A DNA stretch of 36,176 nucleotides, taken from the NCBI GenBank assembly GCA_015521735.1, contig WANQ01000016.1, forward strand, positions 1-36,176. The letters are read 5' to 3'. Below, piece by piece: positions 1 to 36,176 of this stretch (position 1 is its first letter; the number at the start of each line of letters is the position of its first letter). A program made the translations under genes and the position numbers. Below the pieces are notes generated by a model. It saw only the letters and a list, made by a program, of their open reading frames with translations. It did not search any database and was not told the DNA's origin. This stretch comes from Pyrodictiaceae archaeon. GTDB taxonomy: Archaea; Thermoproteota; Thermoprotei_A; Sulfolobales; WANQ01.

Positions 1-1
1 A

Positions 2-130
2 TACTGGGCTCAAAGCCCTCTAGGAGGACCCATGAGAAAATACTATAAAGCAAAACCCGTAGCGAAATTAGTATTAGAGAAAGTATTTAGAGAGATAGAA
101 AAACTAGTAAAAAACATCATGACTAGGTAG
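2..130 (+). CDS. C-terminal fragment of a PadR-like winged-helix regulator (5' end outside window)
   Basis: The frame is open from the window edge to the TAG at 128-130 and gives 42 residues. It begins YWAQSPLGGPMRKYYKAKP, which resembles the wing of PadR-family regulators (a G-G-P-x-R-K-Y-Y turn before the last helix). A Lys/Glu-rich helix of about 20 residues follows, as in the PadR dimerisation tail. The next gene, a membrane SdpI/DUF1648 protein, starts 6 bases later, so the two probably form one transcript of regulator plus membrane protein. An alternative is a separate 32-residue gene starting at the ATG at 32, which has GGAGG four bases upstream. The PadR reading is preferred because the upstream frame is open and fits the family. 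Only the missing 5' sequence can settle it. Confidence 0.55.
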   Translation, partial: YWAQSPLGGPMRKYYKAKPVAKLVLEKVFREIEKLVKNIMTR

Positions 131-136
131 TAAAAT

Positions 137-1015
137 TTGAAGGAAATACTATATGCTATAGCAGGCACAATAATAGTTGCAGGAATAGTATTGTATATTA
201 TAGTTCCAAGAATTAAGCCAAACCCCTTCCTAGGATTCCGTGTAGGCTACGTATATGTTTCAAGAAGATTATGGGTTAAAGCTAATAGAATTGCAAGTAT
301 CACGCTATCACTAATAGCTTTAACATCAATAATATTATCACCGATAATAGGTGAAACAGCTTCACTAATAGTATTAGTTCTTGGAGCCACTATTACCGTA
401 ATAACACTTACATTATATTTTGAAAGACTTGCCGAAAAAGAATTAATATCAATGCCTCCAATCACAGAAGAGAAAACATCCACTATGATAGAACCAATAT
501 ACCCAAGCATATACCACATAATACCACCAATAATTGCATTGACACTATTAGTCATAGGACTAATACTATATTATCCCATGCTTCCACTAGAAGTAGCAGT
601 ACACTTCAATATAGAGGGCTTACCAGACCGTTATACATCGAAAACAGAAGCATTACTAATAATAGTATCATCAGTAATAACAGTCTACTCATTGTACTCG
701 TTCATAATATTTCTAGGCTTAAAGAAACCAGAAGCATTCCATAAACCAGGACTAAGCATTAGGACCATTAGGAAAATAGTAGGTATACTTTACACCATAC
801 TATCAGTTGCAAGTACACTTGTATGTTTAGGTATGCTTGATATACTGTATTACAATGTAAACGAGACACATATTCCATTAATAAACATTATAGTAGTAGT
901 ATTCACCTTGCTAATACTATTACATTTAATACACTTAATACTGATTGTAAAGAAGGAGTATAGACTTGTTGTTAGAGCATGGATTTGGGAAAAAAGTGTA
1001 TGTGAGATTAAATAG
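137..1015 (+). CDS. SdpI/DUF1648-type integral membrane protein
   Basis: A 292-residue membrane protein with about seven hydrophobic segments. Residues 28-54 hold the SdpI-type signature (NPFLGFRVGY, then a Trp-containing helix with W-x-K-A-N). Residues 149-168 hold the DUF1648 signature (LPLEVAVHFNIEGLPDRYTSK region, with the H-F-N and G-x-P-D core). In Bacillus SdpI, the immunity protein against the SDP toxin, DUF1648 comes first and SdpI second; here the order is reversed. The start is TTG at 137, just after the PadR-like stop, with no strong ribosome site, so translational coupling is likely. It converges on the alkaline phosphatase gene with a 13-base gap. The molecular role in archaea is unknown; a signal-transducing or immunity-like membrane role is inference. 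Confidence 0.7.
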   Translation: MKEILYAIAGTIIVAGIVLYIIVPRIKPNPFLGFRVGYVYVSRRLWVKANRIASITLSLIALTSIILSPIIGETASLIVLVLGATITVITLTLYFERLAEKELISMPPITEEKTSTMIEPIYPSIYHIIPPIIALTLLVIGLILYYPMLPLEVAVHFNIEGLPDRYTSKTEALLIIVSSVITVYSLYSFIIFLGLKKPEAFHKPGLSIRTIRKIVGILYTILSVASTLVCLGMLDILYYNVNETHIPLINIIVVVFTLLILLHLIHLILIVKKEYRLVVRAWIWEKSVCEIK

Positions 1016-27737: not shown

Positions 27738-29099
27738 TTAAAGCCTAGCTACTAGAGGTCTACCAACACCCACATACACCATGCCCTCAACTTCGTCAAC
27801 CACCAACAAGTCCCTAGCATCAACAACTGCTACCTTATCCCTACCACTAACTTCCTTAATCCAACTAGTTCTTAGACTCCTAAACTCACTGTGATCTGTT
27901 AAAACCACTATTATGTCTGACCCCCTAATACAGTCTACTAGACTACCAGTAGCTTCCACGTTTACCTTTAGTTTAAGTCTACCTAAGTCCTTTATGAATG
28001 GATCATATACTTTAATTAACCTAAACCCATCCTTCCACAACAACTCCATTACCTTGATGCTCGGCGAATTCCTTACATCACCTATACCTCCACGATAACT
28101 TAAACCCAGTAAGCATAAGCGTGCATTGCCTTCGCCTAAACCAAGTTTTCTTAAAGCCTCGTGTACTAAGCCTACAATCCACTCCGGTTGCTCCTCATTA
28201 ACTCTACGTGCTACTGCTACTAGGTCTAGGCTTAACCCTTTCTCTTCACCCACATTTATTGCAAAATACGGGTATACTGGCAAGCACATACCTCCTACTC
28301 CAGGACCCGGTTTATGTGGGTGTACGTAGGGATTAGTTGATGCTAGTAGAGCTACTTCCTCATAGTCTACACCCAATAATTGTGCGAGTCTAGCGTACTC
28401 GTTAGCCAATGCAATGTTTACGTCACGGTATATGCCCTCGTAGATCCTAGCCAACTCTAATGCTCTTACACTACTTGCAACTATTACTCCACGTCTACTA
28501 ATAGTGGAGTAGAATTGAAGGGCAAGCCTAGTACTCTTAGGACCTATACCAGCTATTATCCTTGGATAAGATTCCTCTATATCCCTTACTATTCTCTCAA
28601 CCATTACTCTCTCTGGAGCATAAGCTAGGTAGAAGTCTTCTTCAACTCTAAGACCACTAGCCCCCTCTAATAGTGTTTTCACATGATTCTCCATGGCTAG
28701 TGGAGGTAGAACTGTTTCAACTAAAACCATGTCGCCTCGCTTAAGCCCTCTAGCTATAGATTCTAAAGCTTTGTCTAGCATAGAGTAGTCTGGTCTAGAA
28801 TCCAAGCCTACTAGTAATGGCACATCTACTATCTTTACCCTAGACTTCCTAGAAGCACTTAGGCCATCAGTAGTAGCTTTTAGGAATCCTTTACTAATAG
28901 CCCATGAAACCATACTACGTACAAGAGGATCAGGATGGTCTACCAAGCCTTTACTGACTTCCTCTACTACCCTCTCATCTATATCTACGCCTATGATCCT
29001 CCTAAACCCGTTCTTAGCGAGTACAGCAATTACTCCTAAGCCTATCCTCCCTAAACCATATACTGCTACAACCTCATTCCTGAAATCTATGTTCTCCAA
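27738..29099 (-). CDS. UDP-glucose/GDP-mannose dehydrogenase family (WecC-like) nucleotide-sugar dehydrogenase
   Basis: 453 residues. The N-terminal Rossmann motif is VAVYGLGRIGLGVIAVLAKNG. The central part has VETVLPP and YAPERVM, and the catalytic Cys272 is in GPGVGGMCLPVYP, equivalent to G-G-x-C-I-P-x-D-P of WecC and UGDH. The C-terminal domain carries LLGLSYRGGIGDVRNSPSIKVMELL and VVLTDHSEF. The enzyme oxidises C6 of a UDP- or GDP-sugar twice, with two NAD+. The YAPER motif favours UDP-ManNAc or UDP-GlcNAc type substrates used in archaeal glycans. The start overlaps the antiporter gene by 13 bases, a surprising operon partner. Confidence 0.85.
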   Translation of the reverse strand: MENIDFRNEVVAVYGLGRIGLGVIAVLAKNGFRRIIGVDIDERVVEEVSKGLVDHPDPLVRSMVSWAISKGFLKATTDGLSASRKSRVKIVDVPLLVGLDSRPDYSMLDKALESIARGLKRGDMVLVETVLPPLAMENHVKTLLEGASGLRVEEDFYLAYAPERVMVERIVRDIEESYPRIIAGIGPKSTRLALQFYSTISRRGVIVASSVRALELARIYEGIYRDVNIALANEYARLAQLLGVDYEEVALLASTNPYVHPHKPGPGVGGMCLPVYPYFAINVGEEKGLSLDLVAVARRVNEEQPEWIVGLVHEALRKLGLGEGNARLCLLGLSYRGGIGDVRNSPSIKVMELLWKDGFRLIKVYDPFIKDLGRLKLKVNVEATGSLVDCIRGSDIIVVLTDHSEFRSLRTSWIKEVSGRDKVAVVDARDLLVVDEVEGMVYVGVGRPLVARL

Positions 29100-33169: not shown

Positions 33170-33598
33170 ATGATTAGAGCTGAGCAACAAATGAATGAAA
33201 CAGGTAAGCATGGAAATAGAGCTACCAGTATGGTTGATAGTAAGAGCTTAGACTTACTAGTAGAGCTAAACAATAAGCTAGATAGAATCATAAGCCTCTT
33301 AGAGAGAATTCTTAGGGCAATGGAGGTTCAAGCAAAGGTTAAGTTAAGAGAAGAGTTGAGGGGAGTAGAAGAATACCTTGACGCTGTAACCCTACTATCA
33401 CTACCAGATCATCTTAGAAGAACAGTACTATCACTAGCAAAGCTTGGAGGAGAAGCTACAGCAGAAGAAGTATCAAGAGTAACAGGGAGAGCTAGAGCAG
33501 TTGAAAGCGCATACCTTAACCAACTCGTAGCTATGGGCTACTTGGGTAAGAAGCGAAAGGGTAGAAAAGTCTACTTTTACTTCCCTAGAGAAGAGTAG
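33170..33598 (+). CDS. Coiled-coil plus winged-helix DNA-binding protein
   Basis: 142 residues. A polar N-terminus is followed by a coiled coil (about 25-70, SLDLLVELNNKLDRIISLLER continuing ILRAMEVQAKVKLREEL). A winged helix comes next (about 80-142: LPDHLRRTVLSLAKLGGEAT, EEVSRVTGRARAVESAYLNQ, LVAMGYLGKKRKGRKVYFYF). The wing is strongly basic. It is likely a DNA-binding dimer. The start ATG 33170 is supported by the TATA box; ATG 33230 would remove 20 poorly conserved-looking residues and is possible. It stands directly upstream of a ParA/MinD-like ATPase with its own near-identical promoter. Confidence 0.75.
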   Translation: MIRAEQQMNETGKHGNRATSMVDSKSLDLLVELNNKLDRIISLLERILRAMEVQAKVKLREELRGVEEYLDAVTLLSLPDHLRRTVLSLAKLGGEATAEEVSRVTGRARAVESAYLNQLVAMGYLGKKRKGRKVYFYFPREE

Positions 33599-33650: not shown

Positions 33651-34415
33651 GTGAAACCTAGAACATACACAATACACTCACATCGCGGAGGTTCTGGTAA
33701 AAGCGTTATAGCCTCTAGTATTGCATTAGAACTAGCATTAAGGGGCTACAACGTCCTACTAGTAGACATGGACTTAAGAGCACCAAGCCTCTACTATATA
33801 TTCCATGAACCACTCGTAAAATACTGGATAAACGACTACCTAGACGGTGAATGTGGTTTCGAGGAAACACTAGTAGATGTATCAGAAAAATACGGTCTTA
33901 GAGGAAGACTAACACTAAGCCTAGCTAACCCCGACATAGAAGTAGTAAAAGACGCATTAACAAAGACACGTAAATGGGAGATGAATGCGTTAAAGAAGCT
34001 TGTTAAAGCTAGGAAACTTGCAAGTGAACTAGGATTCAACATACTAATATACGATACTAGCCCGGGAATACATTACTCCTCCCTAAACACTCTAATAGCA
34101 AGCGACTACGCAATACTAGTAGTTGTACCAGACAACGTTGATGTTAAAGGAGCACTATCATTCGTAAGAGAAATATATGATACAATAAAAACTAAAGCCT
34201 TCCTAATAGTAAACAAGGTTCCTACAAGTAATAGAGATGAAGCTAAAAACATAGCTAAAACCCTAGCAGATCAACTAAAACTACCACTACTAGGAGCTAT
34301 ACCATACTATCACGAAGTAGTAAGGTACAATGGAGTAAAGCATATGGTGTTAGAAGTACCAGAACACCCATACGTATCAGATATAAGGAACATAGTAGAT
34401 AAAATGTTATCCTAG
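33651..34415 (+). CDS. ParA/MinD-superfamily ATPase with variant Walker A
   Basis: 254 residues. The deviant Walker A reads HRGGSGKS (residues 9-16). The second lysine (GK) is kept, but the signature lysine of ParA/MinD (K-G-G-x-G-K) is an arginine. Other motifs are VLLVDMDLRAPS (switch I, D-x-D), ILIYDTSPGIHYSS (Walker B and switch II), and a base-recognition region near FLIVNKVPTSNRDE. Such ATPases move DNA or protein complexes (ParA, SegA, MinD). Its pairing with a coiled-coil DNA-binding protein suggests DNA segregation or nucleoid positioning. GTG 33651 follows a clear AGGGGT site. The domain is complete; length is typical. Confidence 0.82.
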   Translation: MKPRTYTIHSHRGGSGKSVIASSIALELALRGYNVLLVDMDLRAPSLYYIFHEPLVKYWINDYLDGECGFEETLVDVSEKYGLRGRLTLSLANPDIEVVKDALTKTRKWEMNALKKLVKARKLASELGFNILIYDTSPGIHYSSLNTLIASDYAILVVVPDNVDVKGALSFVREIYDTIKTKAFLIVNKVPTSNRDEAKNIAKTLADQLKLPLLGAIPYYHEVVRYNGVKHMVLEVPEHPYVSDIRNIVDKMLS

Positions 34416-34424
34416 AATAGAAGA

Positions 34425-35663
34425 TTACTCTCTAATCTTCTTTGCCTCCCTTATATACTTCATAAGTGCTCTACGTATAATAATCTCTTTAGGTAATGTT
34501 TCTGGTACACGTATAAGGTTGATAATACTTGCTAGTAGTATTAGTAGTCCAAGGATAAGTGATATCTTGTAAGCACTAATACCTTCAATAATTAGCTTAG
34601 AAGCATAGTTACCAATAACTAGTCCAACTAGTATACCGCTAACACCAGTAGCATAGACTAAACCCCTAATCCTCCTAGCACATAGGTCTACGAGAACTGT
34701 TACAGAATACACGTCAACAAAGCCATAGGCTATTTGCTCTACAGCAAAAACCATTACCAGTGCCTGTAAGCTTACTACATCTACTTCACCATAAACTAAT
34801 CCAAGCAGGGTATTACTTAGACCAAGTAGTATGAAGCCAACAATACCTACAGGCCTACGACCAATACTATCAGCTAGTAGTCCAGCAGCAATAGCTACGA
34901 AGAAGTATGGTATGGAGGACATGTAGGCTAATAGAAACTCTGAAACCCCGCCAAGAAGCGGGTAGAGTAGGCCATAGATAACTCCACCAAGAGAATAGAA
35001 TGCGAGAAGACTTAAGGATAGAGAGATAACTCCTCTACTAAGCACAGATCTTATTCGTGAAAAAGATGTTCTCCTAACACTACATTCTACTCCTACAAAG
35101 CGATTAAACAATAAACCAGACAATACTATAGCTAACGCGATAATAACTATAGACATAATACTAGAATGGACACTAACTTCAAACAACAGATACGATAAGA
35201 GATTAGCTAGGCCAATACCTAAGCCAAATACAACACCACGCCCCCATACAACAACTTTTTCATATACATAGTAGACAGTTAATATTGGAGCAAACCCGGT
35301 AAGCAACGAAGCAATAACAACAACTAGTAAAACCATGTAACCAGGAGCCCAGATTAAGGTAACAAGCATTATAGGTACACCTAAAACATAAGACCAAAAC
35401 AACCACCTATGCATGCACAGGAAATCCACGCCAACACCAGCAATGATTACGCCAATCATATATGATACCACAGAAACCATGAAAACACTACCATGATCTA
35501 TATCCCATCCATAACGAATAGAGTGAATTCTAAAAACGGATCCAGCAAACAACAACGATATAGTAACCAGTACCTGAGCAATCACAAACAATATCATAGA
35601 CGTAAACACTGAAACACGCTTACAAATACCACTAACACGCTTAACTAACACACTAGCACACAT
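34425..35663 (-). CDS. Major facilitator superfamily transporter
   Basis: 412 residues with 12 predicted membrane helices in two halves, separated by a basic cytoplasmic loop near residue 210 (VRRTSFSRIRSVLSR). MFS motif A-like sequence appears in the second half (GLLADSIGRRPVGIVGF). A basic N-terminus and a C-terminus rich in Lys/Arg/Glu (LMKYIREAKKIRE) place both ends inside. ATG 35663 is preferred over TTG 35675, because the AT-rich TATA at 35706-35691 predicts initiation near 35672. The substrate is unknown; no operon partner is present. It converges on the ParA-like gene with a 9-base gap. Confidence 0.82.
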   Translation of the reverse strand: MCASVLVKRVSGICKRVSVFTSMILFVIAQVLVTISLLFAGSVFRIHSIRYGWDIDHGSVFMVSVVSYMIGVIIAGVGVDFLCMHRWLFWSYVLGVPIMLVTLIWAPGYMVLLVVVIASLLTGFAPILTVYYVYEKVVVWGRGVVFGLGIGLANLLSYLLFEVSVHSSIMSIVIIALAIVLSGLLFNRFVGVECSVRRTSFSRIRSVLSRGVISLSLSLLAFYSLGGVIYGLLYPLLGGVSEFLLAYMSSIPYFFVAIAAGLLADSIGRRPVGIVGFILLGLSNTLLGLVYGEVDVVSLQALVMVFAVEQIAYGFVDVYSVTVLVDLCARRIRGLVYATGVSGILVGLVIGNYASKLIIEGISAYKISLILGLLILLASIINLIRVPETLPKEIIIRRALMKYIREAKKIRE

Positions 35664-35690
35664 CGCCTTACGCAATTAAGAACTCGTAGC

Positions 35691-35774: not shown

Positions 35775-35804
35775 CCGCTAACACAAGTCATTAACCATTA
35801 AAGA

Positions 35805-36142
35805 AGGGTGCATAGCCCCCAACCCACCGAGATCGAGGCCATAACCCCCTAGCCCTAGGCCCGCCGGGCGACCTAGAGCTAAGGAGTTATGGCCTCGATC
35901 CCACCAACCCCTAGGACTCATGCCTAGGAGACCCCTAAGAGATCCCAGGGAACAGCCCCGCGGGTAGCTGCTCCCCAGGATCTCTTAAGGGCCTCCTAGG
36001 CCCCGGCGGAGCCCTAGGGGTCGGTCGTAGTCTCTTGTTGGGCTATGATATCTCTTCCCCTTTGAGCCCAACGCTTAGAGCTCTAATCCATCCCTCCCTG
36101 GGAGATGAGCTCTAAGGAGAAGAACGAGCTCAGGGAGGGCCA
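35805..36142 (-). ncRNA. Large GC-rich structured RNA of unknown family (candidate)
   Basis: An island of about 60% GC by hand count over 35821-36120, with no open reading frame. Four consecutive hairpins are visible. First, GATCGAGGCCATAAC (35831-35845) pairs perfectly with 35886-35900, enclosing a 10-pair inner stem. Second, a long rod runs 35907-36021 (9 bp, 9 bp perfect at 35922-35930/35993-36001, 13 bp with one bulge, and 9 bp with one mismatch). Third is GTTGGGCT (36037-36044) with 36065-36072. Fourth is CTTAGAGCTC (36074-36083) with 36107-36116. The two stem mismatches (35854/35877 and 35952/35971) are A-C on plus but G-U on minus, so the RNA is probably minus. I find no SRP RNA helix 8, RNase P core, tRNA or rRNA signature. 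Its 5' end may lie outside the window. Confidence 0.6.
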
Positions 36143-36176
36143 AACCCCTCACAGAATAGAGAACCAAACCCAACCA

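Follow-up and report, generated by a model that had tools for sequence, protein, structure and literature searches.

The window, i.e., the whole stretch of 36,176 nucleotides that was analysed, is the complete contig C16 of a 44-contig draft assembly (genome G000), and its last protein-coding gene, which encodes an MFS transporter, is followed on the right by a GC-rich island (Table 1). Further to the left, a gene for a ParA/MinD-like ATPase (33651-34415) lies just downstream of a small gene (33170-33598) without a Pfam match. The island itself (35805-36142) has a GC fraction of 0.607, compared with 0.391 in the window overall, which confirms the island of about 330 bases and about 60% GC described in the first-pass annotation, and it is the only one in the window, with 200-nt windows peaking at 0.48 elsewhere. 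The final ~370 bases are also by far the most stably folding stretch of the window, given that the minus strand of 35790-36176 folds at -240.5 kcal/mol (z -12.5, reached by 0 of 100 shuffles) and the plus strand at -182.3 kcal/mol (z -8.8), and that a 200-nt minus-strand window at 35801 reaches -149 kcal/mol where the background averages -42.4 (s.d. 8.7). A 24-codon open stretch with a start codon on the plus strand, near 36104, lies inside a repeat arm and is not a credible gene.

The window stops within an inverted repeat that is perfect over at least 151 bp, in which positions 36026-36176 are identical to the terminal 151 bases of contig C44 (151/151), where the second arm is found; apart from this arm, the element is single copy in its own genome. 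A complete element on one contig was found, initially through a weak match, in a genome of the other genus of the same family, a 'Desulfurococcales archaeon' MAG (locus L008, genome G001, JALVFK010000226.1), where it runs uninterrupted between a nuclease gene, which also ends C44, and an MFS gene whose product has 30% identity to that of the window's last gene. Since the genes that flank the element in L008 correspond to the end gene of C44 and the last gene of the window, C44 and C16 are oriented towards each other, and the sequence shared by their ends thus represents both arms of one long inverted repeat. The arms of L008 have 170 nt each, are 99% complementary (168/170), and are separated by 207 nt. 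The element is also carried, split at the repeat, by G002 (contigs C140 and C233) and, partially, by G003 (C43), which places it in both genera known for a single archaeal family of thermophiles, at the same locus in the two genera. The remaining parts of the G000 element are on C44 or unassembled; the P1 tip, for example, was looked for in the contigs of this genome and is not assembled.

Table 1. Parts of the predicted RNA and the adjoining gene, in window coordinates unless another locus is named.
Feature	Position	Strand	Description
P1, 3' arm	36026..36176	-	Giant rod, running past the contig end; 5' arm at C44:28831-28981, 151/151 identical
P1, complete rod of 170 bp	L008, arms 990-1159/1367-1536		Seen in the relative
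P2	35904..36024	-	Nested hairpin of ~54 pairs with one 7-nt bulge; 8 G-U, 0 A-C
P2 bulge CGCCGGG	36002..36008	-	Within the block UCCGCCGG, invariant in three genomes
P2 apical palindrome CCCGCGGG	35957..35964	-	Inside an invariant 13-nt block; possible self-kissing loop
P3	35828..35903	-	Uninterrupted 34-pair hairpin; 6 G-U, 0 A-C
P3 apical loop GCCCGGCG	35862..35869	-	Inside the invariant block CCGGCGGGC
Closing helix, 3' strand GGUGGGUUGGGGGCU	35814..35828	-	Partner GGCCAAACCCAACCCACC on C44, about 28809-28830
U-rich stretch	35796..35810	-	Right after the closing helix; probable 3' end of the transcript
MFS transporter gene	34425..35675	-	Downstream, same strand; in L008 the element is flanked by its positional homologue

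The RNA of L008 is predicted to fold into a single four-way junction, formed by a closing helix, a P1 rod branched at its tip, a bulged P2, and P3, with a free energy of -689 kcal/mol for the whole RNA versus -609 on the opposite strand, and a z of -26 for a 751-nt part of it. The closing helix pairs GGCCAAACCCAACCCA with UGGGUUGGGGGCC in this fold, and its two strands vary hardly at all among the genomes in which they are present. On this basis, the minus strand of the window at 35800-36176 would be the 3' half of a structured RNA gene of ~780 nt, and the presence here of a real gene for a structured RNA is considered very likely. The structured RNA of the first-pass annotation thus stands, with the amendment that it covered the 3' half only, of a gene that runs past the contig end. 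Its four hairpins, with stems of 8-15 pairs, were right as to the strong folding and wrong as to the stem lengths, the real ones being longer (34 pairs in P3, ~54 in P2), and the two right-hand hairpins (~36033-36142) are only local folds of one single-stranded arm, the true partner of which is off the contig.

The sense strand is marked by the wobble pairs, which number 26 G-U on this strand of L008 and 0 on the opposite one, and 14 G-U with 0 A-C in P2 and P3 of G000 on the minus strand, where the first-pass annotation had counted two mismatches of the A-C/G-U type. The bias is repeated in each part, with ratios of 8:0 in the P1 tip, 8:0 in P2 of each genome, and 6:0, 9:0, and 11:1 in P3. 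In addition, 23 of the 89 pairs are changed on both sides between the genera, a number reached in 0 of 500 shuffles and compared with 1-7 in slid controls, in a sample where P2-P3 are covered by three sequences, two of them closely related, so that the covariation rests on one deep split. The P2 helices alone have 17 two-sided compensatory changes relative to the relatives, and such changes across homologues, by which functional structured RNAs are recognised, are found in two lineages. The earlier proposal that the pairing has been selected as RNA on the minus strand is thus upheld by the 14:0 bias, the compensatory changes, and the better folding of that strand.

Four sites hold the longest unchanged blocks, namely UCCGCCGG at the P2 bulge, CCCGCGGGGCUGU at the P2 loop, CCGGCGGGC at the P3 loop, and UGGGUUGGGGGC in the closing strand. 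Stems that covary while their loops stay unchanged are typically seen in functional RNA; template-switch correction can also hold hairpins complementary, but it does so without a one-sided excess of G-U.

The ends of the gene are suggested by a conserved, TATA-like AATATAC, located ~30 nt before the closing helix at the 5' end in all four genomes, and by a U-rich tract that follows the closing helix in the relatives L008 and L118 (UCUUUUUGUUUUUG) and is weaker in the window. These signals fit an archaeal promoter and terminator and are not proof of transcription, which would start from the RNA's own TATA-box promoter and end at the U-rich tract. The gene beside the element on C44 (L002:851-1360) encodes a small PD-(D/E)xK nuclease-like protein that is weakly similar to the Holliday-junction resolvase Hjc (PF01870, E 0.002, below the cut-off), and, within the order, its occurrence is limited to this family and 31 genomes of one other family. 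The 26 loci folded from these 31 genomes have no comparable fold adjoining the nuclease gene, and the Hjc-like neighbour was accordingly rejected as an obligatory partner of the RNA. On the same contig, L002:1-726 has a weak likeness (E 0.0018, falling far short of the curated cut-off) to HalB, the nucleotidyltransferase of the Hailong anti-phage system.

The element resembles archaeal SRP RNA in being a GC-rich, long helical RNA in an AT-rich archaeon, and archaeal RNase P RNA in being GC-rich and structured. The window has no match to either (RF01857 and RF00373, respectively), and the genome's own copies are found elsewhere with high scores, at G000:C38:13648-13956 (169 bits) for the SRP RNA and at G000:C12:4862-5187 (178 bits) for the RNase P RNA, in agreement with the poor fit to both that had been noted from the sequence. 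The G001 assembly has two SRP RNA genes above the cut-off (C244:21372-21682 and C57:3975-4285), perhaps from two strains in one bin. Searched against Rfam 15, the window matches no family at the gathering score, its weak matches to miRNA models reflecting hairpin shape only and being far below those scores, and the complete homologue in L008 also yields only weak matches, all far below the gathering scores; the Rfam models of the large bacterial RNAs OLE, ROOL, and GOLLD are included in this result for both sequences. Together with homologues in another genus that show strong compensatory change, this supports the first-pass suggestion of a new or very divergent structured RNA.

A covariance model of P2 and P3 matched three of 214 genomes of the order, G000, G001, and G002, and one of 398 sampled from the phylum, G000. 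No match to the element was found in the plasmids and viral contigs searched, and the literature search found nothing that describes such an RNA in Desulfurococcales-type archaea. Given this, the element seems to represent a new RNA class within the limits of the searched collections, restricted to one small family. The novelty is that of the RNA family and of its rod-and-junction layout, large ornate RNAs being already known as a broad idea.

The arms of the rod are identical or nearly so within a genome (151/151 and 168/170) and clearly different, yet recognisably related, between the genera, a pattern that points to gene conversion or inversion between the arms, through which recombination would keep P1 identical at the DNA level. 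Given that only two positions in 170 are mismatched, the perfection of the rod would be due to DNA homogenisation more than to pair-by-pair selection on the RNA. Moreover, G002 and G001 have the segment between the P1 arms in opposite orientations (L118:1-680 versus L008:960-1745), and the tip folds better in the orientation of G001 in both genomes. The difference could reflect either an inversion that really took place through the repeat or an ambiguity of assembly; short reads cannot separate the two.

Arms that are perfect or 99% complementary over at least 151 and 170 bp, and a tip that is inverted between two genomes, would also be expected if the element worked as DNA, either by extruding as a cruciform or by serving as an invertible recombination site on which the adjoining nuclease might act, given its weak likeness to Hjc, with any transcription being incidental. 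However, a G-U excess on one side only (26:0 and 14:0) would have no meaning in DNA, P2 and P3 covary around conserved loops, the nuclease gene of the other family lacks such an element beside it in the 26 loci folded, and the inversion of the tip may itself be an artefact of assembling the repeat, all of which make a DNA function decidedly improbable.

A precursor, in which the hairpins are processing signals and the mature product is something else, as in an rRNA trailer or a small-RNA precursor, was suggested by the long processing stems that archaeal pre-rRNAs carry, by the contig break at the repeat, and by 16S and 23S searches of the assembly that returned no match, in which three short contigs, C2, C32, and C40, consist only of N, which limits the weight of this absence. 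The trailer was rejected because the contig ends that read into the 16S (C5) and the 23S (C15), as seen by eye in the end sequences, are located elsewhere, and because, judged by the relative, the shared ends meet from opposite sides of a single locus, at which the element lies between two protein genes and contains no Rfam family; a precursor of any kind is considered very improbable. The long inverted repeat around a 207-bp centre recalls, in turn, what is left of a mobile element bounded by long terminal inverted repeats, an origin that is scarcely credible for a sequence with one copy in its genome apart from the second arm, the same place in two genera, no match among plasmids and viral contigs, and a structure conserved outside the repeat. 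Copy number and synteny also rule out a dispersed repeat or IS.

The reading that is preferred here, and considered very likely, is of a stand-alone gene for a non-coding RNA of ~780 nt, organised as a four-way junction of the closing helix, a P1 of ~170 bp, P2, and P3, and acting as an architectural RNA; the fold, its conservation, the sense strand, the syntenic position, and the lack of known relatives are all read from the sequence, while the scaffold role, when judged by itself, falls somewhat below an even chance. The RNA would be a rigid scaffold with conserved contact parts, namely the bulge of P2 and the apical loops of P2 and P3. Between the P2 bulge and the P3 loop, complementarity is perfect over 7 nt (CCGCCGG/CCGGCGG), and the two may kiss, with the caveat that complementarity between loops made only of G and C can arise by chance. 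The bulge lies 17 pairs from the junction and the P3 loop 34 pairs, distances that fit poorly within one molecule, and the contacts might therefore join copies of the RNA into oligomers; contact between molecules would thus be at least as likely as contact within one. As signs of an oligomer, the palindromic P2 loop and the complementary bulge and loop are suggestive only, and the formation of a homo-oligomer is regarded as rather doubtful.

RNAs of such size and conserved complexity have usually proved either to work as central machines or to form large RNA-only assemblies, and archaea have few known families of this kind. The layout itself is unusual, in that two covarying arms with invariant loops are carried by a rod that matches a small gene in length and is homogenised in the DNA, and such a rod, at growth near the boiling point, would rank among the most stable RNA structures proposed. 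One of the closest parallels is provided by OLE, ROOL, and GOLLD, which form RNA-only homo-oligomers whose multimers are built by kissing loops (PMC12286853). The element shares with these RNAs the large size of its predicted non-coding RNA, the multi-helix architecture, and the conserved loops able to kiss, but it is archaeal, has no sequence or Rfam match to them, forms an oligomer only putatively, and is dominated by a 170-bp inverted-repeat rod that evolves in concert. It is conceivable, if on balance unlikely, that the element represents a giant archaeal RNA class, with a ~170-bp rod kept perfect by recombination of its DNA arms and an RNA-only multimer built through loop contacts, as a separately evolved counterpart of these bacterial RNAs.

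Finally, short-read contigs break at the inverted repeat, where three of the family's four assemblies are split, and comparable RNAs may hide in other draft genomes. Other contig ends of the window's assembly also have features of their own: the left end of the window (1-260) has a repeat of ~140 bp in common with the start of contig C35, and the ends of contigs C13, C25, and C28 carry CTGTCTCTTATACACATCT, the Nextera transposon end (a near match in C28), which is untrimmed adapter in the public assembly.
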